This document shows positions 1 to 15,246 of a DNA stretch of 32,736 nt, in pieces; position 1 is the stretch's first letter, and each line of letters opens with the position of its first letter. The DNA is from Candidatus Kuenenia stuttgartensis. Its GTDB lineage: Bacteria > Planctomycetota > Planctomycetia > Pirellulales > UBA1268. The DNA is taken from assembly GCA_945860405.1 (NCBI GenBank), contig CAMARC010000009.1:1-32736 (forward strand). The letters are read 5' to 3'. The notes beneath the pieces were generated by a model. It was given only the letters and a program-made list of their open reading frames with translations. It was not told the origin of the DNA and did no database searches. The position numbers and the translations under genes were made by a program.

Positions 1-2646
1 GCCGCCGAACTGCTCACCGGGCTTCCTGCCGATCCCGCCGAGGTCGATCGGGTCGTCGCCGATCCCGATCCGCTGGCGTATGAAAAGTATGTCGACCGGC
101 TGCTGGCATCCCCCCACTTCGGCGAGCGGTTTGCCCGCCACTGGCTCGATGTCGTCCGCTACGGCGAGACGCGTGGCCACGAGTTCGACTTCCCCATTCC
201 CAACGCGTGGCGCTACCGCGATTGGGTGATCGACAGCCTCAACGCCGATCTCCCCTACGACCAATTCGTCCGCGAGCAGATTGCTGGCGATCTTCTCGAC
301 AGTCCCCGGCTGAACGCCGCCGGCGCTGATCTGTCGGTGCTCGGCACAGGCTTTTGGTATCTCGGCGAGGAGATCCATTCGCCGGTCGACATCGCCCAAG
401 ATGCTGCCGACCGCACCGACAATCGGGTCGACACCTTCGGGAAGGCGTTCCTCGGCATGGCGCTTGGGTGCGCCCGCTGCCACGACCACAAGTTCGACGC
501 CATCTCCAAGGAGGATTACTACGCCATCGCCGGCATGCTTGCCTCGAGCAGCTACCGGCAGGTGCCCTTCGAATCCCTCCCCACCAATCGCGAAGTCGCC
601 AGGCGCCTCGACGCCCACGACGCCGAGGCCCGTTTCCGCCTCGGCCATACGGTAGCCGACACGCTCGCCGGGGGCGACGGAGCGGCAGCTGATGACCTCG
701 CCCGACTCGCCGAGCGCGTGACCGCGGCGCTCCCTCCCCGTGACGCGCTCCTTGCGATCAAGAGCGAGGGAGTGAGCGCCGAAGGCGAGATCGTGATCGC
801 CGACTACTCCCGCGCGCAAGGGGCCACGGCCCTGATCGGCGACGGCTTCGCTTGGGGCTTGCGTCCCCGGCCGGCCGGGGAGGCCGTGATCGTGACGGGA
901 GCCGAGGGAACGCCCGCGCGACTCCGCATCGAGCCGACGACTTCCGCCCACTTCGACGGCCTGTGGGCCGGGCTTGTGTCCAGCGGCGAACGCGAGGCCG
1001 GAGCCCTCGGGGGCGCCGACCGGGCCGGGCGCGTCCTCCGGACGCCGAAGGTGCGGATCGAAGGGGGAACGGTTTGGCACCGTGTCCGCGGCCATCTGCA
1101 GATCTTCACCTGCGTCGACAGCCACATCCTCCTCGTCGGGCCGCTCTACGGCTCCACCCTCCAAACGGTCGACACGCAGGGGGAGTGGAAGTGGATCCGG
1201 CAAGATCTGGGCAGCGACTTGAACTGGCAGCGGGGGCATCTCATTCATGTCGAGTACGTGCCGGTCGCCGGGGCAGCCGACGTCGCCGAAGTCGTCGCCT
1301 CCCCGACCGAGCCGAAGCGGGCCGATCCGTTCCTGGCCGCCGTTGCCCGGCGCCTTCCGGCGGAGGGGGCCGATGACGCTGCGATCGCCGCGGCTGTGGG
1401 CGAGCTCGTCACCGAGGCGCTCGTGGCCGCACGGGATGGAACGCTCTTCACCGGACCACGGGCGGCAGAGTTCGCGGGGGCTCTCGAACGCCTCCTGAGC
1501 GATTCGGCGATCGATTGGAACGGCGCGCGGGCGACGGCGCTTGTTGCCCAGGCGCGGGAACTGGATGTGGCCCGCGCCACGATCACGGCGGGGGCCAAGC
1601 TCGCCTCGGGAACAGCCCCGGCGATCCTCGACGGCAACGGCGTCGATCATCCGGTTCTCGTCAAGGGTTCGGCCGCCCGGCCCGCGTCGATGGTGCCACG
1701 ACGATTCCTCGAGGCGGTCGACGGCGGCGGCCAGCCGGTCTGGCCGGCGGCGTCTTCGGGGCGCCGCGAACTTGCCGATCGGGTGCTTGACCCGGCAAAT
1801 CCGCTCACGGCGCGCGTGGCGGTGAATCGATTCTGGCACCACCTCTTCGGCCGCGGCCTCATTCCCACCCCCGATAATTTCGGCAAGCTCGGTGAGCCGT
1901 TGGCCGATGCCGGCGCCGGCGCTCTCCTCGATGCGCTTGCCGTTCGCTTCCGGGAGGAAGGGTGGAGCATGAAGCGGCTTGTGCGGGAGATCGTCACGAG
2001 CAGCACCTGGCGGATGCAGTCGGTGGCCGATCCGCGGGCGGTGGAGCTTGATCCGAGGAATCTCCTCCTCCACCACTTCCCGCTCCGTCGGCTCGAAGGG
2101 GAGTCGGTCCGTGACAAGATCCTTGCCGTCTCGGGCCGGCTCGATCCGAAGATCGGTGGCCCTCCGGTGGAGGTGGCGCTGTCGGACTTCCACGAAGGGC
2201 GCGGCAAGCCGGGGTCGGGGCCGCTCGACGGCGATGGCCGCCGCAGCATCTACACGAGGATCCGGCGCAACTTCCTTCCGGCGATCCCCCTGGCCTTCGA
2301 CATGCCGGTGCCGTTCCAGGCGATGGGGCGCCGGAATGTCACGAACGTGCCGGCGCAGGCGCTGACGCTCATGAACGATCCGTTCGTCGTCGAGCAGTCA
2401 GCCCGCTGGGCCGCGCGGATCCTCGCCGATCCCGCCACATCGGTCGACGAGTCCATCGGGACGATGTACCGCGAGGCCTTCGCCCGCCCACCGTCGCCTG
2501 ACGAGCTGGCCGCGGCGCGGGGATTCCTCTCGGCACAGGCGGCGATCAACGGGGGTGATTTCGCCATCGATCCGCGGCAGCCTGCCGTCTGGGCCGACCT
2601 CGCCCATGCGCTCATCAACGCCAAGGAGTTCATTTTCGTTCCATGA
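1..2646 (+). CDS. DUF1549/DUF1553 (PSCyt1/PSD1-type) planctomycete protein, 5' end truncated by window
   Basis: Frame 1 is open from base 1 (AAELLTGLPADPAEVDRVVADPDPLAYEKYVDRLLASPHFGERFARHWLDVVRYGETRGHEFDF...) into ORF 226-2646. Family motifs: GCARCHDHKFDAIS, NPLTARVAVNRFWHHLFGRGLIPTPDNFG, LVREIVTSSTWR, NVPAQALTLMNDPFV. Confidence 0.93.
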   Translation, partial: AAELLTGLPADPAEVDRVVADPDPLAYEKYVDRLLASPHFGERFARHWLDVVRYGETRGHEFDFPIPNAWRYRDWVIDSLNADLPYDQFVREQIAGDLLDSPRLNAAGADLSVLGTGFWYLGEEIHSPVDIAQDAADRTDNRVDTFGKAFLGMALGCARCHDHKFDAISKEDYYAIAGMLASSSYRQVPFESLPTNREVARRLDAHDAEARFRLGHTVADTLAGGDGAAADDLARLAERVTAALPPRDALLAIKSEGVSAEGEIVIADYSRAQGATALIGDGFAWGLRPRPAGEAVIVTGAEGTPARLRIEPTTSAHFDGLWAGLVSSGEREAGALGGADRAGRVLRTPKVRIEGGTVWHRVRGHLQIFTCVDSHILLVGPLYGSTLQTVDTQGEWKWIRQDLGSDLNWQRGHLIHVEYVPVAGAADVAEVVASPTEPKRADPFLAAVARRLPAEGADDAAIAAAVGELVTEALVAARDGTLFTGPRAAEFAGALERLLSDSAIDWNGARATALVAQARELDVARATITAGAKLASGTAPAILDGNGVDHPVLVKGSAARPASMVPRRFLEAVDGGGQPVWPAASSGRRELADRVLDPANPLTARVAVNRFWHHLFGRGLIPTPDNFGKLGEPLADAGAGALLDALAVRFREEGWSMKRLVREIVTSSTWRMQSVADPRAVELDPRNLLLHHFPLRRLEGESVRDKILAVSGRLDPKIGGPPVEVALSDFHEGRGKPGSGPLDGDGRRSIYTRIRRNFLPAIPLAFDMPVPFQAMGRRNVTNVPAQALTLMNDPFVVEQSARWAARILADPATSVDESIGTMYREAFARPPSPDELAAARGFLSAQAAINGGDFAIDPRQPAVWADLAHALINAKEFIFVP

Positions 2647-4094
2647 GCCACAACTCCCGCCACATCCACCACTGTCGACGGTATCTCCCCGCGCCGATCT
2701 CCCGACGGGCCCTCCTCGCGCAGGCGTCGTGTGGATTCGGAGGGATGGCGGCGGCGGCGCTCCTCCACGCCGAAGCGGCCCGGGCCGATTCCGTGGCGCC
2801 GGTGAACCATCATCCCGCGAAGGCGAAGAACGTCATCTTCCTCTACATGGATGGTGGCGTGTCCCAGGTCGACAGCTTCGACCCGAAGCCGCGGCTCGAT
2901 CAGGATGCCGGCAAGAGCCCGCGCGACCTGTTCAAGGTCGATCAGACGCAGTTCAACAATGTCGGGACGATTCTTCCCAGCCCCTGGAAGTTCAAGCCGT
3001 ACGGGGCGTGTGGCCTGCCGGTGAGCGATCTGTTTCCACACATCGGATCGGTTGCCGACGAGCTGGCGGTGATCCGCTCGATGACCAGCGAGTTCCCCGA
3101 ACACACCAACGCCAACTATTTCCTCCACACCGGCAGCGGGCTCCAGGGGCGGCCGAGCATGGGGGCGTGGACGACGTACGGCCTGGGGAGCGAGAACGAC
3201 GATCTCCCCGGCTACATCGTCGTCAACGGTGGCCTCATTCCGCCGGGCGGGCTCGACAACTTCACCAACGGCTTCCTCCCTGCCACGTTCCAGGGATCGG
3301 TGTTCAAGCCGACCGCCACGGGGCTGGCGAACGTCGGCCGCCGGGACGGATCGAGGGATGCCCAGATCGCCAAGCTCGACTTCGCCCGCGGGCTCGACCG
3401 CTCCTTCGCGGCCCGGCTCGCCGGTGACGGGATGGCGCCCGACGCCCTCGAGAGCGCGATCGTCAACCAGGAATTGGCCTACCGCATGCAGACGTCCGTT
3501 CCCGATCTCCTCGATCTCTCAGGAGAGACCGAGGCGATCAAGCACGACTACGGCTGCGATTCCGAAAACGAGCCGACGCGGATCTTTGCCAACGAGTGTC
3601 TCCTCGCGCGGCGGATGGTGGAACGTGGCGTGAGGTTTGTGGAATTGACCTGCACGTCGGTCGGCACCGACCGCTGGGACCAGCACGGCAATCTCCGCGA
3701 GGGGCATGCCGCCAATGCCCGCGCCGTCGATCAGCCGATCGCGGCGCTGATCCGCGATCTCCGGCAGCGCGGGATGCTCGAATCAACGCTCGTCGTCTGG
3801 AGCGGGGAGTTCGGCCGCACGCCCTTTGCCCAGGGGGGCGATGGCCGCGACCACAATCCCCAGGCCTTCTCGATGTGGATGGCCGGCGGCGGCGTGAAGG
3901 GGGGCGTGACCGTCGGGGCAACCGACGACTACGGCTATCGGGTCGTGGAGAAGAAGTTCCAGATCCACGATCTCCATGCGACGATGCTCCATCTCATGGG
4001 CATCGATCACACGCGGCTCACCTACCGCTTCAGTGGCCGGGACATGCGTCTCACCGACGTCCACGGCCATGTGATCCGTGACGTTCTCGCCTGA
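2643..4094 (+). CDS. DUF1501 domain-containing protein with Tat-like N-terminus
   Basis: ATGA overlap with the upstream DUF1549/1553 gene; SRRALLAQASCGFGGMAAAALL; DGGVSQVDSFDPK; WSGEFGRTPFAQGGDGRDHNPQAFSMWMAGGGVKGG; LTYRFSGRDMRLTDVHGHVIRDVLA. Confidence 0.95.
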   Translation: MSHNSRHIHHCRRYLPAPISRRALLAQASCGFGGMAAAALLHAEAARADSVAPVNHHPAKAKNVIFLYMDGGVSQVDSFDPKPRLDQDAGKSPRDLFKVDQTQFNNVGTILPSPWKFKPYGACGLPVSDLFPHIGSVADELAVIRSMTSEFPEHTNANYFLHTGSGLQGRPSMGAWTTYGLGSENDDLPGYIVVNGGLIPPGGLDNFTNGFLPATFQGSVFKPTATGLANVGRRDGSRDAQIAKLDFARGLDRSFAARLAGDGMAPDALESAIVNQELAYRMQTSVPDLLDLSGETEAIKHDYGCDSENEPTRIFANECLLARRMVERGVRFVELTCTSVGTDRWDQHGNLREGHAANARAVDQPIAALIRDLRQRGMLESTLVVWSGEFGRTPFAQGGDGRDHNPQAFSMWMAGGGVKGGVTVGATDDYGYRVVEKKFQIHDLHATMLHLMGIDHTRLTYRFSGRDMRLTDVHGHVIRDVLA

Positions 4095-4641: not shown

Positions 4642-4756
4642 CTGGGGTGTTCGTGCCAGTTCTGCCGGTTTTTCCTGTGGAGCGGAGTCTTGCTCGGACG
4701 ATCAAAGACTCCGATAGGGTCAATTGTCCGGTCCATCACCCTCGGTCAAGGGGTCA

Positions 4757-6208
4757 GTGGTGATCAACTTGCTTCCTCCTTCACTCCATCGCTTCCTCGG
4801 GCTCGCCGCCTTGGTGACGTCAATGTTGGTCGCCAGCCCTGCGGCGGCCGCGCCCCCCTCCCGGGCGTCGATCGCTCCGACGGACGAAGGTGGGCTGCTG
4901 CTCGGGGGCGAGGAGCTCTTCGCTCCGGAGCCCGCCGCGGCGATCGGCCTGGTTGACGAAGCCCAGGCGTCCGATCCGCTCGACGGAGTCCTGGGCAGCG
5001 TCGTCGGCGAGCCGCTCCCGGGGGGCTTCTCCGAATCGATCGTGAACCCCGAGCCATCACCGATGGACGGCCTCCTTGTCGACGAGATGCCGGAGGAGGT
5101 GAGCTCCGGCGGCTGGTTCGGCACCGGGCAATACTACGGCTCGGCCGAGCTCGTGTTTCTCAACCGCGGCCGCAACTACCGCAAGGTGATCGGCTACGAC
5201 TCCGAGCTCCTCACCCTGTCGGCACTCGATAGATACTTGATCCTCAGGTCGAAGCAGGGGACCTTCACGACCGACTCGCTCCCCTACAACGTCTCCCCTG
5301 GGGCGCGAATCACCGTCGGCGAATTCCTCGGCCGCGACTACCTCGACCGTGACCGGTCGGTGGAAGTCACGTATTACGGCGGCTTCTCCTTCTACCAAAA
5401 CGATGGCTGGAACTCGATTCTCACCTCGCAGACTCAAAGCTATCTCGTCACCCCCCTCTCCGACGCGACGCCCGGCTTTACCGGTGCCCAGCAGTATCTG
5501 ACGACGAGCTCCTCGAACTTCAACAGCATCGAGGCCAATTTCAAGCTTCACCGGCGCCTCGGTCGCGACAAGATGATGATGGTGCCCAACGGCGAATGGG
5601 CGCGGCACGCCGAGCGTGGCTGGCTGCCGGCGATCCTCGTCGGCGCCAGGCTCGCCAATTACAACGAGACCTTCTCCTTCAGTAGCCGCGCCTATTCGAC
5701 GCCCGTCGAGAAATTCAGCGGCGACTACCTCATCCAGACTCAGAATTGGCTGTTGGGCCTCAACCTCGGCGGCGAGTTGATCAGTCGGAACGAGTTCTTC
5801 TACTGGGGGCTCCGTGGCCGCGCCGCTCCGGCGATCTCCTTCGCCGGCACCCAGCAGCAGATGAACGCCCGCAACAATGGCTATCAGCAGCCCACCGCGG
5901 TGCCCGCGCAGGGCACGCCCCTTCCCCCCAGTGGCGAGCCGCGGTTGCCGTTCCCCGAGGGGACCGAGATCTGGAAGATGGCCGGGCAGCAGATCGGCCC
6001 CGGGTTCCTCGGCGATTTAACCTGCCTGGCGGGCTGGAACATGACGCCCAATTCCTCCATCCAGGTTGGCTACGACATTCTCTGGGTGGCGGGCGTGGCC
6101 ACCGCAACGCGGCAGTTCAGCGTCAACAAGACGCGCTACAACCAGATCGATCCGGGCGGACAGTCGTTCATGATGGGCTTCTCGCTCGGTTACAACCAGA
6201 CATGGTGA
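4757..6208 (+). CDS. BBP7-like outer-membrane beta-barrel protein (secreted)
   Basis: ORF 4724-6208. A GTG start at 4757/4760 is preferred because of the upstream AAGGGG and the signal peptide (VINLLPPSLHRFLGLAALVTSMLVASPAAAA). Alternating aromatic beta-strand pattern; ends ...FMMGFSLGYNQTW with a terminal aromatic residue. Confidence 0.72.
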   Translation: MVINLLPPSLHRFLGLAALVTSMLVASPAAAAPPSRASIAPTDEGGLLLGGEELFAPEPAAAIGLVDEAQASDPLDGVLGSVVGEPLPGGFSESIVNPEPSPMDGLLVDEMPEEVSSGGWFGTGQYYGSAELVFLNRGRNYRKVIGYDSELLTLSALDRYLILRSKQGTFTTDSLPYNVSPGARITVGEFLGRDYLDRDRSVEVTYYGGFSFYQNDGWNSILTSQTQSYLVTPLSDATPGFTGAQQYLTTSSSNFNSIEANFKLHRRLGRDKMMMVPNGEWARHAERGWLPAILVGARLANYNETFSFSSRAYSTPVEKFSGDYLIQTQNWLLGLNLGGELISRNEFFYWGLRGRAAPAISFAGTQQQMNARNNGYQQPTAVPAQGTPLPPSGEPRLPFPEGTEIWKMAGQQIGPGFLGDLTCLAGWNMTPNSSIQVGYDILWVAGVATATRQFSVNKTRYNQIDPGGQSFMMGFSLGYNQTW

Positions 6209-6227: not shown

Positions 6228-7493
6228 TCACTCCGCGGCGACCACCACCGCTGCCGCCTGCCCGGTCGAGCAGAGGTTGACGGCGAGCACGGTGCCGGCA
6301 CGACCGGCGAGCGGCTCGCGATGGACGACGTTGACGGGGCAGTCAGGGTCTGGCGCGTCGTAGTTGAGCGAGACCGGGATCAGCCCCGCATCCAGTCCGA
6401 GGATGCTCGCGGCCAGTTCCACGGCGCCACCGCCGGCCCCGAGATGCCCGAAGGCGCTCTTCGGGGCGGTGACCGGAATGTCGCCGAGTTCAGCGACGAT
6501 GGCGGTCGCCTCGACCCGGTCCATTTCCATCGTCGAGGCTCCGTGGGCGTTGACGTGCCCCAGACCTTCCGGCTCGATGCCGGCCTGGCTGAGCGCTGCT
6601 CGGATTGCCAAGCGCAGGGCAGAACCAGAGAGCCGAGCCCCTCCCACCGCCGGTTCGCAGCGCGACGTCGCCGAGCGAAGGTGGCCGCGGATGCGGGCTC
6701 CACGTCGCAGGGCGTGATCGCGTGACTCGAGGACGAACATCCCGGCTCCCTCGCCGTTGACGAGGCCGTCGCGATCGAGATCGAAGGGGCGGCTGGCCCG
6801 CGTGCAGTCGTCGCGGCGATGGGAGAGAAGGGCATCGCCTCGAGCCACCAGCGCCATCGGATGGAGACGGCATCCGCTCCCGCCGGCGAGCATCACGTCG
6901 GCCCAGCCACGGCGGATGACGCTCGCCGCCTCGCCGATCGCCAGCAACCCGGAGACATCGCCGAGGACGATGGTGTTGTTGGGGCCGCGGGCATCGTGGG
7001 CGATGGCGATGTGCGACGCGGTCATGTTGGGGAGATGCTTGAGGAGCCAGAGCGGATGGAGATCCTCATGGATCGCCTCCGACCAGACCGCGAAGTCGAA
7101 TCCTCCCCCCGCGAGCGCCCGCCGGTAGGTCCGCTCCATCTCTTCGAGATCGGCGTAGATCATGTCGCCCCCGACGACGACGCCGAACCGCTCCGGCTCG
7201 AGCTCCCCGGGCGCGAGCCCCGCGTCGGCCATCGCCAGATCGGCGGCGGCGAATCCGAACTGGATCTCGCGGCTCATCACCTTGAGGCTCTTCCGCGGCC
7301 TCACCCACAGCTTCGGGTCGAAGCCGGCGACCTCGCCGCCGAACGGCACGCTGAGGCTACTGGCGTCGAATTGCTCGATCGGCCGGATCCCCGACCGGCC
7401 AGCGAGCAGGGAGGCCCAAAAAGCGTCACCGCCGATCCCGATCGGACTGACCACGCCCAACCCGGTGACGACGACCTCGCGACGGCTGCTCAT
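6228..7493 (-). CDS. FabF-type beta-ketoacyl-ACP synthase-like protein lacking the nucleophilic Cys
   Basis: VVVTGLGVVSPIGIGGDAFWASLLAGRSGI; HVNAHGASTMEMDRVEATAI; PKSAFGHLGAGGGAVELAASIL; the active-site segment reads PNNTIVLGDVSGLLAIGEAASVIRRG (Asp where Cys is expected). Confidence 0.92.
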   Translation of the reverse strand: MSSRREVVVTGLGVVSPIGIGGDAFWASLLAGRSGIRPIEQFDASSLSVPFGGEVAGFDPKLWVRPRKSLKVMSREIQFGFAAADLAMADAGLAPGELEPERFGVVVGGDMIYADLEEMERTYRRALAGGGFDFAVWSEAIHEDLHPLWLLKHLPNMTASHIAIAHDARGPNNTIVLGDVSGLLAIGEAASVIRRGWADVMLAGGSGCRLHPMALVARGDALLSHRRDDCTRASRPFDLDRDGLVNGEGAGMFVLESRDHALRRGARIRGHLRSATSRCEPAVGGARLSGSALRLAIRAALSQAGIEPEGLGHVNAHGASTMEMDRVEATAIVAELGDIPVTAPKSAFGHLGAGGGAVELAASILGLDAGLIPVSLNYDAPDPDCPVNVVHREPLAGRAGTVLAVNLCSTGQAAAVVVAAE

Positions 7494-7596: not shown

Positions 7597-8181
7597 TCAA
7601 GGCTGCCGCGGGTGGGCCGCCCGCCATTGGGAAGGCTCTTCGGCACGGCTGTCGGCCCACAGCCCGCGTCGCTCGCGGCGGGCAGCCGACTCGGCCTCGA
7701 CGAGGTCGGGATCCGGCGCGATCCGACCGAACACCCAGGCATGGCCCTCCGCCACCATCTCGCGATTGATGTCGCGATCGTCGATCCAGAGCGTGCCGAG
7801 GAGGCGACCGTGCTGGTCGTACCCGCGCGAGACGACGGCGACGCGGCGGCCGGCCACCTTGCGCGACAGCGCGTCGGACGACTCCCTCCCCCACGCCTGG
7901 GCCGCCTCCGGGGCATCGATGCCGAAGAGACGGATCTTGTGCGTCTCCCCCTCGGTGTCGTGGCAGGTGATCGTGTCGCCGTCGTGCACCGTGCGGACCG
8001 TCCAGGTGGGGCGGCCGACGGCGTCGGGGATCCGGCAGCGCTCCACGGCGGCCGTCCCGATCGCGGCGAGGGCCATGGCGGCAAACCACCACGGCCGCCA
8101 CCGCGACGGGAGGCCCCGGCGACGATCGGGGCGCCGCGGTGGGCGGGCTCCTGATCGGGGCGGGGGAGGAATCCGTGTCAC
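7597..8181 (-). CDS. SNase-like (thermonuclease family) protein with N-terminal hydrophobic segment
   Basis: VRTVHDGDTITCHDTEGETHKIRLFGIDAPEAAQAWGRESSDALSRKV...YDQHGRLLGTLWIDDRDINREMVAEGHAWV. GTG start at 8181 overlaps the DUF1501 stop by 4 nt (GTGA). Confidence 0.87.
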   Translation of the reverse strand: MTRIPPPPRSGARPPRRPDRRRGLPSRWRPWWFAAMALAAIGTAAVERCRIPDAVGRPTWTVRTVHDGDTITCHDTEGETHKIRLFGIDAPEAAQAWGRESSDALSRKVAGRRVAVVSRGYDQHGRLLGTLWIDDRDINREMVAEGHAWVFGRIAPDPDLVEAESAARRERRGLWADSRAEEPSQWRAAHPRQP

Positions 8182-9638
8182 GCCAGCCAGTCCTCGATGA
8201 CCCGGCCGTGGATGTCGGTGAGGCGGAAGTCGCGGCCGCTGTGGCGGAAGGTGAGCCGCGTGTGGTCGAGGCCGAGGCAATGGAGGATCGTGGCCTGAAG
8301 ATCGTGGACATGCACCGGCTTGTCGACCGCCTTGAAGCCGAGCTCGTCGGTGGCGCCGTAGGCCGTTCCCCCCTTCACGCCACCGCCGGCCATCCACACC
8401 GAGAAACCATGATGGTTGTGATCGCGGCCTGAGATCTCCTTGATGTCGGTGCCCGGCTGGGGCAGCTCCACGGTCGGAGTCCGTCCGAACTCGCCCCCCC
8501 AGAGCACGAGCGTGCTCTCGAGGAGCCCCAAGGCGACGAGGTCGTCGAGGAGCGCGCCGATCGCCTGATCACACTCTTTTGCCAACCGCGCGTGATTCCT
8601 GCCGATCGCGTCGTGGCTGTCCCACGGCTGCCCCTCGCCGTGCCACACCTGCACGTAGCGCACGCCACGCTCGACGAGCCTCCGGGCGATCAGCATCTGC
8701 CGCCCCTGGGTGTCGTCGCCGTACCGATCGCGAACATGCTGCGGCTCGCGGGTGACGTCGAAGGCCTCCCCCGCCTCCGCCTGCATCCGCCAAGCCAGCT
8801 CCATCGAAGCCAATCGCGACTCGAGCTGCGGGTCGTGGGCGCGGGTGGCGAGGTGCTTGCGGTCGAGCGCCGTCGTCAGATCGAACTGCCGGCGCTGGGC
8901 ATCGCGGTCGAGGAACGGGTGGCGGACGTTCTCGACGAGCTCCTCCACCTTTCGCTTGGCAGTATCGACGTAGGTCCCCTGGTAAGCCCCCGGGAGAAAG
9001 GCATTGCGCCAGTTCTCCGTGCCCTTGATCGGATAGCCACCCGGGCACATCGCCACGAAGCCGGGGAGATTTTGGTTTTCCGTTCCCAGGCCGTAGGTCA
9101 CCCACGCCCCGGCGGCGGGGCGGACAAGCCGGCTATCACCGCAATTCATGAGCATCAGCGACGGCTCATGGTTGGGGACGTCGGCGTGCATCGAGCGAAC
9201 GACGAGGAGCCTGTCGGCATGGCGGGCCACCGACGGGAACAGATCGCTGATCTCGAGGCCACTCTCGCCATGGCGACGGAAGGCGAACGGCGAGGGAAGG
9301 GCGGCACCGGTGCGACGCTCGGTGGGGAGGGTGCCGGGGACTTCCTGCCCGGCATACTTCTCGAGCGCGATCTTGCGATCGAAGGTGTCGAGGTGGCTTG
9401 GGCCACCGTTGGCGAACAGATGAATCACGGCTCTGGCCCGCGCGGGGAAGTGCGGGGGGCGGGGCGTGAGCGAGCGGTGGATCGGCTCCGGTGATGAGGC
9501 CGGGCCGATGCTGGCGTTGGCGGCGGCGGCTTCCGTTTCCAGGAGGCTCGCGGCCCCGAGCCAGCCGAGCCCCAGCCCAGTGCGGAGCAGGGCGTCGCGT
9601 CTGGTGAACGCCTCGGGATGGGGGGGCTGAATGGACAT
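8178..9638 (-). CDS. DUF1501 domain-containing protein
   Basis: Internal start MSIQPPHPEAFTRRDALLRTGLGLGWLGAASLL within ORF 8178-10295; FANGGPSHLDTFDRK; WGGEFGRTPTVELPQPGTDIKEISGRDHNHHGFSVWMAGGGVKGG. Confidence 0.94.
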   Translation of the reverse strand: MSIQPPHPEAFTRRDALLRTGLGLGWLGAASLLETEAAAANASIGPASSPEPIHRSLTPRPPHFPARARAVIHLFANGGPSHLDTFDRKIALEKYAGQEVPGTLPTERRTGAALPSPFAFRRHGESGLEISDLFPSVARHADRLLVVRSMHADVPNHEPSLMLMNCGDSRLVRPAAGAWVTYGLGTENQNLPGFVAMCPGGYPIKGTENWRNAFLPGAYQGTYVDTAKRKVEELVENVRHPFLDRDAQRRQFDLTTALDRKHLATRAHDPQLESRLASMELAWRMQAEAGEAFDVTREPQHVRDRYGDDTQGRQMLIARRLVERGVRYVQVWHGEGQPWDSHDAIGRNHARLAKECDQAIGALLDDLVALGLLESTLVLWGGEFGRTPTVELPQPGTDIKEISGRDHNHHGFSVWMAGGGVKGGTAYGATDELGFKAVDKPVHVHDLQATILHCLGLDHTRLTFRHSGRDFRLTDIHGRVIEDWLA

Positions 9639-9673
9639 GGTGATGCCAGCGAGGGAAGGGGCCGTGAAGGGCG

Positions 9674-12541
9674 TCAGTCGGTGAATTGAAACTCGGCCGA
9701 GGCGAGCACCGCCTGGGCGAGTTGTTCCCAGGGGCCGAAGTCGGGAGTCGCGGTTCCGGCGATGGCGAGGAATCCCTTCGCTGCCGCGAGCTCCTCTGCA
9801 TCGGGGGACCGGGAGAGGCAGGCCCGCCACAGCCGCTCGATCCGCCCGTCGTCCCCGCTCGCCGCTTCGCGCAGCGACCGCGCGGCGACCTGGCGGGCGG
9901 CCTCGATGACCAGCGGCGCGTTGAGGGCGGCCAGCGACTGTTGGGGAACGCTCGTCCGGCTCCGCTCGTGGGTCGAGGCATCGGGGTTGGCGACGTCGAA
10001 AATCCGCAGGATGCCCGGGACATCCTGGCGGTCGAGCCGTGTGTAGAGGGTGCGGCGATGCATGGCGTCCTGGGCGAGCGGGTTCACGCCGCGGCCGCCG
10101 CGATGGTGGGTATCGAGAGCCCCGGCCGCCGCCATCAGGCCGTCGCGCCACGCCTCCCAGTCGAGGCGCCGCCGGTTGGCATGGGCGAGGAGCCGGTTGT
10201 CGGGATCGACGGCCTCCTGATCGGCGGAGGCGACGGCCGACCGTCGCCACGTGCGGCTCGTGACGATCTCGCGGTGGAGCCAGCGGAGGCTCCACTTGCC
10301 TTCATCGACGAAGCGCCGCGCCAGGTCATCGAGGAGCTCCGGATGGCTTGGCGGCTCCCCGCGCAACCCCAGATCGCCGACCGGATCGACGATCCCACGG
10401 CCGAAGTGGTGCGCCCAAACCCAGTTGACGATCATCCGGGCGGCGAGTGGGTTGTTTGGGTCGACGATCCCGCGGGCGAGGTCGAGACGGCCGCTCGAGG
10501 TCCGCGAGGCGGGGGTGCCGCCGATGAGCTTGGGGAGCCGGCGCTCGACGAGCTCGCCGGGGCGGCCGGGATTGCCGCGGATGAGGACATGGCTGTCGGA
10601 GAGTGGTTCCCGGTCGAACATCACCATCGCCTGCGGGGGCCCCCCCGGCGACTCGGCCTCGTGCTTGGTGATCTCCATCTTTCGGCGGCGGTGTTCGTTC
10701 CCCTCCTCGATCGAGGCCAGTTGCATCGCCTCGCCGGGCTGCACGACCAGTGCCGTGCCCTCGGCTCCGAGGGCGACGCGGAGGGCGACAAGCCCCGCCG
10801 GATCATCCGCTTTGGCAACCGGACCACCGGCCCACTCCGGGGCCACCCGGGCGAAGAGACGCCCGTAGGCTTCGGCCACGCCGCGCAGCGTCGTCGGGGT
10901 GGGGGAGCGGAGTTCGGCAGCGACCAGCGGATTGACGACCGCCGGATCGGGTTGCTCGCCCCAGCCGACCAGCAGCCCCGCGATGGCGGGCCTGATCTCC
11001 TCGTCGGTCTTCCCCTTGAGCTGCACCCACGGCCCGAGGATCGGGTCGGTCGGGGCGGCGTTACCGATCCCGCTCGAGACGCGGTCGAGGAGCCCCTGAA
11101 GGAGGTCGTAGTCGTCGGAGAGTCTCGGGGGGCGGTTGTCGGCCTTGCGCGGCGTGGGGCGGGCGGTCTCGAGGAGATAGTCGGCGGCGTGCGCGATGGC
11201 AGCAGTCGTCCCCCGACGGCGGACGGCGTCCTCGTGGGCTGGCACGGCCGCCTTGAGCTCCGCGAGCTTGGCGTTGAAGGCATCGGCCTCCGGGCCAGGG
11301 GGCGCCGTCCCGATGACCGGCAGCTCAGCGGGAATCTGGCTCGACGCGAAGATCCCGTAGAGCCCGTAGTAATCGGCCGTGCTTACCGGTTCGTATTTGT
11401 GGTCGTGGCAGCGGCCGCAGGCCACCGTCAGGCCGAGGAGCCCGCGGGTCACCAGATCGATGCGGTCGTCGATGATGTCGTGGGGATTGCCGAGGAACGT
11501 GCGGCCGACGGTGAGGAAGCCGAGGGCGGCAAGATCGGCCTTCGGGGCCGGCAGCTCGAGAGCATCGGCGGCGAGTTGGAGCGTCACGAACCGGTCGTAG
11601 GGCATGTCGGACGCGAGTGCCCCCACGACCCAGTCGCGGTAGGTCCAAGCGAACGGATAGCGGGGATCCTGGTTGCCGAAGGCATAGCCCATCGTGTCGG
11701 CGTAGCGGGCCAGATCGAGCCAGTGGCGCGCCCAGTGTTCGCCATGCTCGGGCGCCGCGAGGAGCTCCTCGACGAGAGCGCGCCAAGCGTCCTCTGAAGG
11801 ATTCGCGGCAAAGGCATCGACACGGTCAGCCGGTGGTGGGAGGCCGGTGAGGTCGAACCACAACCGGCGGACGAGGGCCCGGGGATCGGCCTGGGGCGCG
11901 GGCTCGAGGCCCGCAGCGACGATCTTCGCGGTCACGAAGCGGTCGAGGAGCCCGCCCCACTCGAGGCTCTTGGCGGGATCGAGCCCGGCGGGAGCCTCGG
12001 GGGCAGGGTGACGGGCGAGAGGCTGGAAGGCCCAGTGACGCTCGCGAGCCCAGGCGAGCCGCGCTTCCATGTCGGCCGGGATCGCGTCTTGACCAGCGGC
12101 AGGGCCTTCGGTGCCGGGCCCGCTCCAGGGGGCGCCAGCCGCAATCCAGGCTTCGAGAATCGCCACCTCCTCGGCCGGGAGCGGTTCGTCGGGGGGCATC
12201 GCCGGCTCGAGCTCGCGGCGGACCACCTTCAAGACCTTGCTGGCTGACGGGTCACCGGGGGTGAGGATCGTTCCCGAGTCGCCCCCCTTGAGCACCGCCG
12301 GGAGATTGTCGAGCCGCAGCCCCCCCTCGGCCACCCGGTCGCCATGACAGCCCTGGCAACGGGCGACCAGGAGCGGCCGAACCTTCTCCTCGAACAGCTT
12401 TTCCTGCTCAGGCGAGATCGCTGCTGCCGGTTGCGCCCCGGCGAGAAGCACGGTCGGGAGAGCGATCAGCAGCCCCGCCAACGGGAATACCGCCGGCCAG
12501 AGGGAAAGGGCACGGCGGATGGTGAGACTGATGTGGCGCAT
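9674..12541 (-). CDS. PSCyt1/DUF1549/DUF1553 protein with N-terminal c-type cytochrome motif
   Basis: VRPLLVARCQGCHGDRVAEGGLRLDN (CxxCH); VACGRCHDHKYEPVSTADYYGLYGIFASS; NPLAARMIVNWVWAHHFGRGIVDPVGDLGLRGEPPSHPELLD; VPQQSLAALNAPLV. Confidence 0.95.
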   Translation of the reverse strand: MRHISLTIRRALSLWPAVFPLAGLLIALPTVLLAGAQPAAAISPEQEKLFEEKVRPLLVARCQGCHGDRVAEGGLRLDNLPAVLKGGDSGTILTPGDPSASKVLKVVRRELEPAMPPDEPLPAEEVAILEAWIAAGAPWSGPGTEGPAAGQDAIPADMEARLAWARERHWAFQPLARHPAPEAPAGLDPAKSLEWGGLLDRFVTAKIVAAGLEPAPQADPRALVRRLWFDLTGLPPPADRVDAFAANPSEDAWRALVEELLAAPEHGEHWARHWLDLARYADTMGYAFGNQDPRYPFAWTYRDWVVGALASDMPYDRFVTLQLAADALELPAPKADLAALGFLTVGRTFLGNPHDIIDDRIDLVTRGLLGLTVACGRCHDHKYEPVSTADYYGLYGIFASSQIPAELPVIGTAPPGPEADAFNAKLAELKAAVPAHEDAVRRRGTTAAIAHAADYLLETARPTPRKADNRPPRLSDDYDLLQGLLDRVSSGIGNAAPTDPILGPWVQLKGKTDEEIRPAIAGLLVGWGEQPDPAVVNPLVAAELRSPTPTTLRGVAEAYGRLFARVAPEWAGGPVAKADDPAGLVALRVALGAEGTALVVQPGEAMQLASIEEGNEHRRRKMEITKHEAESPGGPPQAMVMFDREPLSDSHVLIRGNPGRPGELVERRLPKLIGGTPASRTSSGRLDLARGIVDPNNPLAARMIVNWVWAHHFGRGIVDPVGDLGLRGEPPSHPELLDDLARRFVDEGKWSLRWLHREIVTSRTWRRSAVASADQEAVDPDNRLLAHANRRRLDWEAWRDGLMAAAGALDTHHRGGRGVNPLAQDAMHRRTLYTRLDRQDVPGILRIFDVANPDASTHERSRTSVPQQSLAALNAPLVIEAARQVAARSLREAASGDDGRIERLWRACLSRSPDAEELAAAKGFLAIAGTATPDFGPWEQLAQAVLASAEFQFTD

Positions 12542-12676
12542 GGTGAGGGGCGGGGTCGGCCAGGCCGATCCGCCGCCACCAATTCTAGGCCACCATTGGC
12601 AGACTTCGACATCCGGGTTGCCGCTTGCTGCGGAAGTGGTGAGCTGGCAACGGCTTAAGCGCTGCCCCGCAGGGCT

Positions 12677-13735
12677 TCAACGGCGGCCAACGACCATCGT
12701 TGCGAGAAAGCCGACCATCGAGCCCCGCCAATTCTTCACGGTGGGGTTATGGAGCTCGTTGAGCAGGGCTCGTTGGTCCTCCGTCGGGGTGGGAAGATGC
12801 TCGAGGAGCAACGCCGCCATCGCCACCTCGCTCCCCCGCAGCGCCCCATCCTCCGCCTTGAGGGCAATCCCCAGGCCTGCCTCGGGGATCGCCGCACAGA
12901 GCACCCCTTCGGCCCCCGATTTGAGAAACACCCTCGGGCCGCAGCTCGCCGTCACGCGCGAGTCAAATCGCCCCGGGCCGGCGAGGAGCAGTGGATGGTC
13001 GGCCACCGCCCGGCGGAGCCGCTCGAACGCTGCGTGCCTGCCGGCGGAGAGGCTCGCCCCGGTGCCGATCCGGGCAAAGCCCGTCGCCAGGCTCGCCAGA
13101 GGCACCGCATAGGTCGGGATCGAGCAGCCGTCAGTCCCGCGGTTGGCCGCCGACAGGCGAACGCCGCACACCTCGGCAACCGTCGCCGTGACGCGCTTCT
13201 GCACCGGATGATCGGGGGTGACGTAGCCCTTCGTGTCGAGCCCGAGGTGGCGGGCCACGGCGAGGAAGCCGGCATGCTTGCCGGAGCAGTTGTTGTGGAG
13301 CGGGGAGGGCTCGTCGGCAACGCGCGCCAAGGCGCGGGCGCTTGCCTCCTCGAGGGGCCAGTGGGCCCCGCACTCGAGGCTGCCCGGTTCGAACCCCGCC
13401 TTGTCGAGCATGCTCCGGGCCGTCTCCACATGGAGCGGCGTGCCGGCGTGCGAGCTGCACGCAAGTGCGAGCTCGGACGGCGTGAAGCCGAACCGATCCG
13501 CCGCGCCGCTCTCCAGAAGCGCGAGCGTCTGGATCGATTTCACCGCCGAGCGGGGGAATGTCGGCCGCTGCGGATCGCCGTGCGAGGCGACAAGGCTGCC
13601 GTCGTCGCGGGCGATCACGGCATGAATGGCGTGGGTCGATTCGGTCTCCTTGCCGCGGACCACGCCCACGACCAGGGGAGGTCGTTCCTGGATCGAGGCG
13701 GCGGCGATGGAATGGTGGGGCATGGGAAGACTCAC
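12677..13735 (-). CDS. Asparaginase II family protein (thermolabile L-asparaginase-like)
   Basis: LVVGVVRGKETESTHAIHAVIARDDG; SAVKSIQTLALLESGAADRFG; LALACSSHAGTPLHVETARSML; LHNNCSGKHAGFLAVARHLGLDTKGYVTPDHPVQKRV; GTDGCSIPTYAVPL. Confidence 0.92.
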   Translation of the reverse strand: MSLPMPHHSIAAASIQERPPLVVGVVRGKETESTHAIHAVIARDDGSLVASHGDPQRPTFPRSAVKSIQTLALLESGAADRFGFTPSELALACSSHAGTPLHVETARSMLDKAGFEPGSLECGAHWPLEEASARALARVADEPSPLHNNCSGKHAGFLAVARHLGLDTKGYVTPDHPVQKRVTATVAEVCGVRLSAANRGTDGCSIPTYAVPLASLATGFARIGTGASLSAGRHAAFERLRRAVADHPLLLAGPGRFDSRVTASCGPRVFLKSGAEGVLCAAIPEAGLGIALKAEDGALRGSEVAMAALLLEHLPTPTEDQRALLNELHNPTVKNWRGSMVGFLATMVVGRR

Positions 13736-13812
13736 GACAGGGACTCGACCAAGCGAAAGGGCCCCCGAACTGCGGCGGCACGCGTTGGGGGGACGGGCAG
13801 AAGGAGCATAGA

Positions 13813-15246
13813 ATGCAGTTCGGTCTTTCAGGTACGCCCAAAACCGGCGGGGGCAGGATGGCGGTTCTTCGGCCAGACATCACGAGGCGGCTCCTCTCCC
13901 GGCGGGAACTGATCCGCGTCGGGGGCCTGGGGGCGCTCGGCCTCGGGTTGCCGGCTCTCCGTGCCGGTCGGGCCGCCACGCTCGCCGGACGCCCGCGGGC
14001 CAACTCGTGCCTGATCATTTTTCTCTCCGGCGGGCCGCCGCAGCACGAGACCTTCGACCCCAAGCCGGCGGCGCCAATCGAGATCCGCGGGCCCTTCCTT
14101 CCGATCGCGACGAGTGTCCCGGGCCTCCAGTTCAGCGAGCTCCTCCCGCTTTCAGCCGCCCGCGCCCATCGGATGTGCGTCATCCGCTCGATGACGACCG
14201 GCATTCATTCCCACTCCACCAGCGGCTGTTTCATGCTCACCGGCCATGAGCCGACGAGCGTGGCCGAGAGCGTGCCCCCCAGCGCCCAGGATTGGCCGAG
14301 CCTCGCCGGCGCCGTCGGCGCGCTGCGGGCCGCCGAGCGCTCGCCGCTCGATGCGGTCATCCTCCCCGAGCCGATCTTCAACAATCCGGCGATCCCCTGG
14401 CCGGGGCAGAACGGTGGCTTCATGGGGGCGGCCTGGCATCCGCACATCCTCCGCTGCGATCCGTCGCAGGAGCGGATCGAGATCGAGGGGCTGACCGCCG
14501 CGGCCGGGGTGACGGAGCTGCGCCTCGATGACCGCCACGCGCTCCTCGGCCAAGTCGATCGGATGCTCCACCGTGGCCTCCGCAGCCCGGCGATCGCCGA
14601 GATGAACCGCTTCCAACAGGAAGCCTTCGACCTCCTCCATGCAGGCGCCACCCGCGAGGCCCTCGAGATCGAGCGCGAGCCGGCGGCCTCGCGCGATCGT
14701 TACGGGCGGGGAAAGTTCGGCCAGAGCGTGCTCCTCGGACGACGGCTGATCGAGGCCGGGGTGAGGCTCGTTCAGGTCAACTGGCCGCGCGAGCCGGGGG
14801 ACACGGCCGCCGGAAATCCACTCTGGGACACCCATCAGGACAACGCCGGCCGGCTCAAGAACGTCCTCTGCCCGCAGTTTGACACCGCCTACAGCGCGCT
14901 CCTCGACGATCTCGAGGACCGTGGCCTCCTCGATGAGACGCTCGTCGTCGTGATGGGGGAGTTCGGCCGCACGCCGACGATCAACACAGCCGGTGGCCGC
15001 GACCATTGGGGGAGCGTGTTCTCGGTGGCCCTGGCCGGCGCCGGCGTGCCGGGCGGTGGCGTCATCGGCGCCAGTGACGCGCGCGGCGGAATGCCGGCCG
15101 ATCGCCCTGTCCGCCCCCCCGATCTTGCCGCCACGATCTTCCAGCTCCTCGGCATCTCCCCCGATCACGAGTTCCGCGATCCCTTCGATCGCCCGCTGCA
15201 AGTCGTCTCCGGGGGGCAGGCGCTCCGGGAGATCGTCGGCGCATGA
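13813..15246 (+). CDS. DUF1501 domain-containing protein (third copy, no DUF1549 partner)
   Basis: ITRRLLSRRELIRVGGLGALGLGLPALRAGRAATL; FLSGGPPQHETFDPKPAAP; VVMGEFGRTPTINTAGGRDHWGSVFSVALAGAGVPGG. Alternative start at 13858. Confidence 0.92.
   Translation: MQFGLSGTPKTGGGRMAVLRPDITRRLLSRRELIRVGGLGALGLGLPALRAGRAATLAGRPRANSCLIIFLSGGPPQHETFDPKPAAPIEIRGPFLPIATSVPGLQFSELLPLSAARAHRMCVIRSMTTGIHSHSTSGCFMLTGHEPTSVAESVPPSAQDWPSLAGAVGALRAAERSPLDAVILPEPIFNNPAIPWPGQNGGFMGAAWHPHILRCDPSQERIEIEGLTAAAGVTELRLDDRHALLGQVDRMLHRGLRSPAIAEMNRFQQEAFDLLHAGATREALEIEREPAASRDRYGRGKFGQSVLLGRRLIEAGVRLVQVNWPREPGDTAAGNPLWDTHQDNAGRLKNVLCPQFDTAYSALLDDLEDRGLLDETLVVVMGEFGRTPTINTAGGRDHWGSVFSVALAGAGVPGGGVIGASDARGGMPADRPVRPPDLAATIFQLLGISPDHEFRDPFDRPLQVVSGGQALREIVGA

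Follow-up and report, generated by a model that had tools for sequence, protein, structure and literature searches.

The window, as we call the whole 32,736-nucleotide stretch of planctomycete DNA analysed here, encodes a FabF-like β-ketoacyl synthase (KS) in which an aspartate takes the place of the nucleophilic cysteine. Judged from the sequences compared, conservation of this acid-substituted KS type extends over the class Planctomycetia, and the protein probably serves as a helper subunit, an essential one, rather than as a catalyst. Our best explanation, which we think has an even chance of being correct, is a non-condensing subunit that binds ACP, plays an accessory part in fatty-acid or lipid synthesis and resembles a chain-length factor (CLF, or KS-β). 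The exchange itself is not new: Asp- or Glu-bearing FabF paralogues of planctomycetes have been known since 2009 (PMC2649909), the preliminary description of this DNA did not mention them, and the window KS joins a known, unexplained group.

The gene lies on the minus strand at positions 6,228–7,493, with an ATG start at 7,493, and its 421-residue product is a full-length β-ketoacyl synthase with Pfam matches to PF00109 and PF02801. Against the FabF equivalog model TIGR03150 it scores 296.4 bits, below the cut-off of 493.75; the fabF of the fatty-acid synthase (FAS) operon in the same genome scores 598.5 bits. The nearest solved folds returned by Foldseek are FabF structures, with TM values of about 0.9. 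E. coli FabF served as the active-site reference, with residue roles taken from PMC7138838. In alignments to the PDB sequences of solved FabF, the segment LGD179VSG falls on TAC163xSG, so that Asp179 (codon GAT, 6,957–6,959, minus strand) occupies the position of Cys163. The AlphaFold model has a pLDDT of 92.7 and its buried helix begins at residue 178, which places Asp179 at the nucleophile elbow. His317 (6,543–6,545), Lys345 (6,459–6,461) and His350 (6,444–6,446, all on the minus strand) are the equivalents of FabF His303, Lys335 and His340, and Glu359 is also kept. Replacement of the nucleophile by Asp, together with retention of both His, had been proposed in the preliminary description and is borne out here, with the Lys added to it; a Cys at the elbow was looked for as evidence to the contrary and is absent, alignment and model both placing Asp179 there.

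The departures from FabF extend to elements that the earlier account did not cover. Residues Cys408–Gln412 (CSTGQ; 6,258–6,272, minus strand) stand in place of the GFGG gating loop and Phe400, to which gating and oxyanion-hole roles are ascribed in FabF (PMC7138838). The equivalents of FabF Asp265 and Asn404 are Glu280 and Ala413, and the loop network is gone. Because an acid replaces the Cys, a Cys acyl-thioester is impossible, and both sequence and model indicate that the ping-pong reaction of FabF cannot be carried out by the window KS. The segment from Lys68 to Lys71 (7,281–7,292, minus strand) supplies the equivalents of FabF Lys65 and Arg68, which belong to ACP-docking region 1 (PMC7138838), and the core of the fold is kept; the protein may still be able to meet ACP. 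A Trp, Trp149 (7,047–7,049, minus strand), is found at the position of FabF Phe133.

Orthologues of the window KS are present in 11 of 12 genomes at the genus level and in most of 72 genomes at the family level, and a strong homologue was found in 162 of 197 genomes of the order. At the class level, all 119 genomes searched gave a KS match at E ≤ 1e-60, but this threshold also admits Cys-bearing KSs and the class-wide count alone is no proof of the acid type; direct inspection of 20 class-level matches gave 16 with an acid and four with Cys. Within the window's family the site is Asp in 55 of 56 sequences and Glu in the other. That the Asp would be conserved in orthologues had been a point to check, and it is, close orthologues with Cys being absent; a sequencing error or isolated mutation is ruled out by the orthologues that carry the acid. 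The 46 orphan homologues outside the family (order and class) have Glu (29), Asp (14), Asn (1), Gly (1) or Ser (1). None of the 118 clade sequences compared has Cys163, Asn404 or the GFGG-gate residue Phe400, and all 118 have Lys at the positions of both Lys65 and Arg68. Trp at the Phe133 position is invariant among the 56 family members and the 16 Glu-type paralogues described below, and the FabF Asp265 position is Glu in the family. His350 is kept in 54 of the 56 family sequences and is Asn in most of the remaining clade, including all Glu-type paralogues. FabF Arg206 and Lys128, also part of the ACP interface, were checked across the clade and are not conserved, leaving region 1 only. Comparison of the window KS with its relatives gave dN/dS values of 0.09–0.23, which indicates purifying selection. 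With Cys, gating loop, oxyanion-hole Phe and loop network all lost in a clade under such selection, the earlier designation as a non-condensing KS paralogue is well supported.

For phylogenetic analysis with IQ-TREE, the nucleophile columns were taken out of the alignment. The 42 acid-bearing sequences and one with Ser form one planctomycete clade with an SH-aLRT value of 100, and an earlier FastTree agrees. It contains the orphan type found in the window, the Glu-type paralogue with its His-Lys-Asn pattern, and further class-level lineages. Its sister group consists of eight Cys-bearing planctomycete KSs, with active-site segments such as GPNNTIVTACxA. The actinobacterial CLFs, which have Gln, do not group with the acid clade in the IQ-TREE tree and are placed elsewhere. 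The topology points to a single origin of the acid substitution.

Immediately upstream of the window KS lies a staphylococcal-nuclease-like gene (7,597–8,397, minus strand; the start of the ORF is uncertain, and the domain spans residues 154–249), which is syntenic with the KS in most of the family, a synteny that is family-specific. Downstream, a convergent gene for a BBP7-like outer-membrane β-barrel (4,724–6,208, plus strand) is likewise syntenic in the family; the window copy has no Pfam match, and its relatives give weak BBP7 matches. Both genes are probably not part of the KS function. A functional tie to these two or to the neighbouring DUF1501, DUF1549 and DUF1553 genes was considered and rejected as incidental, since only occasional BBP7-like genes recur across the order. 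Positions 226–4,094 and 8,178–15,246 of the window carry repeated genes of the DUF1501 and PSD1/PSCyt (DUF1553/DUF1549) kinds, which are typical of planctomycetes.

The gene had been called genomically orphaned, and this proves to be the rule: in 38 loci from the order, neither another KS nor an ACP hit came up within about 5 kb. A gene cluster with ACP or KR was likewise rejected, since an SDR gene at a few loci is all of this kind that lies near the orphan. A divergent PF00487 fatty-acid desaturase gene lies upstream of the orphan KS in 14 of the 38 loci, spread over ten families, and is sometimes accompanied by GNAT and SDR genes. One locus (L126:764-4587) has SDR, GNAT and desaturase adjoining the KS, and genes from this trio turn up again in several of the order's families; these surroundings possibly represent a lipid-modification neighbourhood. 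Identity of the epimerase-like SDR neighbour with OleD of the olefin pathway was rejected, the matches lying far under the cut-offs. Two genomes, G043 and G009, have two copies of the orphan KS; the diverged second copy of G043 (L098:10870-12126) is 62% identical, keeps the Asp and lies a few kb from the first on the opposite strand.

The Glu-type sister paralogue has a different setting. In the window's own genome it follows fabG-acpP-fabF and precedes nusA, and it is linked to fabF also in G032, G294 and G431. Between fabF and the Glu-type KS of the own genome lies a gene for a 342-residue protein without a Pfam family (L008:3631-4659, contig C15 of G000), homologues of which occur in other genomes (L195 and L200). 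Adjacency to a KS-α partner gene, as in CLFs, is seen only for this sister paralogue.

Genome G431 (ESSENTIALITY) comprises a chromosome (5,423,075 bp) and a second replicon (37,010 bp); these are the sizes of Planctopirus limnophila DSM 3776, a species for which genetic tools exist, and G431 is presumably its genome. Its stand-alone KS ORFs number exactly five: three carry Cys and two carry Glu, and of the Glu pair one is an orphan and the other lies behind fabF. In the transposon study of Rivas-Marin et al. (PMC10632474), P. limnophila has five KS paralogues, all of them essential; the grouping of paralogues used there demands similar length, a rule that should leave type I synthases out of the essential KS group. 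If the two sets of five coincide, both Cys-less KSs are essential, and essentiality of a Cys-less KS in P. limnophila is probable.

Among the roles offered in the preliminary description, a CLF-like partner fits best, because the sister paralogue adjoins fabF and acpP and because CLF-type domains of PUFA synthases carry Asp or Glu. The statement that CLFs typically have Gln holds for the two CLFs compared but not for these PUFA-synthase domains: in alignments, 6riw shows Glu at this site in its second domain, and a PfaC-like protein from the window's own genome shows Asp in its second KS. As a CLF-like subunit, the window KS would pair with a Cys-bearing KS, most likely the housekeeping FabF or a second FabF-like KS, and would shape the acyl pocket of its partner or steer acyl-ACP, and in this way would determine chain length or substrate; the acidic residue would leave its own pseudo-active site unacylated. 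The core FAS partner would then be the Glu-type paralogue encoded with fabG-acpP-fabF, and a more specialised function in lipid metabolism would fall to the orphan, as suggested by its desaturase neighbours elsewhere in the order. Several observations count against the CLF-like reading. KS and ACP genes adjoin the orphan at no locus checked, unlike in classical KS-CLF pairs; conservation is confined to docking region 1; the clade stands apart from the actinobacterial CLFs; and the window's family retains the Lys along with the two His, which goes beyond the needs of a purely structural subunit. We propose more tentatively, and with considerable doubt, that FAS in Planctomycetia uses heteromeric ketosynthases, in which the two acid-substituted, Cys-less FabF paralogues (the orphan and the fabF-linked one) serve primary lipid metabolism as essential, CLF-like subunits.

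The retained His and Lys bear on two other readings. One, the decarboxylase also offered earlier, is a KSQ-like enzyme in which the two His and the Lys make acetyl-ACP from malonyl-ACP and so prime fatty-acid synthesis, with Asp in place of Cys. It accords with their retention in the family (54/56), and both His have been named indispensable for malonyl decarboxylation (PMC2649909); it is weakened, however, and to us unlikely, for most of the clade has Asn in place of the second His, the nucleophile position holds Asp rather than the Gln of the KSQ type, and gate and oxyanion-hole Phe are gone. The other is a new catalysis confined to the window's family, in which Asp179 would act with His317 and His350 as a general acid-base system or as a 2-His-1-carboxylate metal site. 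The complete Asp-His-Lys-His set in 53 of 56 sequences of the family clade, under purifying selection, speaks for it, but in sequences from elsewhere Asn usually replaces one of the two His and the acid is sometimes Asp, sometimes Glu, and we hold it to be quite improbable.

Loss of the catalytic elements alongside conservation of docking region 1 would also suit an acyl-ACP sensor or sequestering factor, which would bind acyl-ACP without reacting and regulate flux or partners such as a desaturase. The orphan gene and its desaturase neighbours in the order agree with such a role; we identified no precedent for it, conservation does not extend to regions 2 and 3 of the ACP interface, and we consider it unlikely. 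Lost catalytic residues could finally mark a non-functional relic, an isolated mutation or an error, but the acid is invariant in independent genomes, the gene is widely conserved with the low dN/dS given above and is probably essential in P. limnophila, so that we give this explanation almost no credence.

In the open-licence literature we found no statement of the single origin of the acid clade, of its class-wide spread or of the loss of the gate, nothing on linkage of the Glu-type KS to FAS genes or of the orphan to desaturases, and no statement of an overlap of Cys-less KSs with the essential KS set. A Cys-less FabF paralogue with such class-wide conservation, strong purifying selection and probable essentiality implies that the make-up of planctomycete FAS departs from the E. 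coli model. To our knowledge, a CLF-like subunit role has so far been tied to polyketide and PUFA synthases, not to bacterial type II FAS. If these proteins are indeed KS partners, CLF-type chain-length control would reach housekeeping FAS.

Compared with known systems, the window KS shares with FabF (KAS II) the fold, the length, the two His and the Lys, but has neither the Cys nor the GFGG gate and falls under the TIGR03150 cut-off. With CLFs (such as ActI-ORF2, 1tqy_B) it has in common a KS fold without the nucleophilic Cys and, at the Lys, a surrounding TAPK motif. In the two CLFs compared, Gln occupies the Cys site, the first His has been lost and the gene adjoins that of KS-α, whereas the window KS carries Asp, retains its His, is encoded by an orphan gene and belongs to a separate clade. 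ORF10 of 6riw, presumably a two-KS-domain protein of the PUFA-synthase type, has by alignment an acid at the Cys position of its second, CLF-type domain, as does the window KS, but is distant in sequence from this FabF-type protein. The own genome also contains a PfaC-like ORF of type I (contig C137 of G000, L010:4471-9459); of its two KS domains, the second has Asp (GDCSG) at the Cys position and represents a separate acid-substituted CLF-type domain. The closest published counterparts are the FabF paralogues of Rhodopirellula baltica tabulated by Rattray et al. (PMC2649909), RB3714 with Asp163 and RB4527 with Glu163. On the published residue pattern only, Asp163, His298, His333 and Ser392 of RB3714 match Asp179, His317, His350 and Ser409 of the window KS, with Ile and Gly tabulated where the latter has Lys345 and Glu359; on the same footing, the Glu, His, Lys, Asn, Glu and Pro of RB4527 match the Glu-type paralogue.
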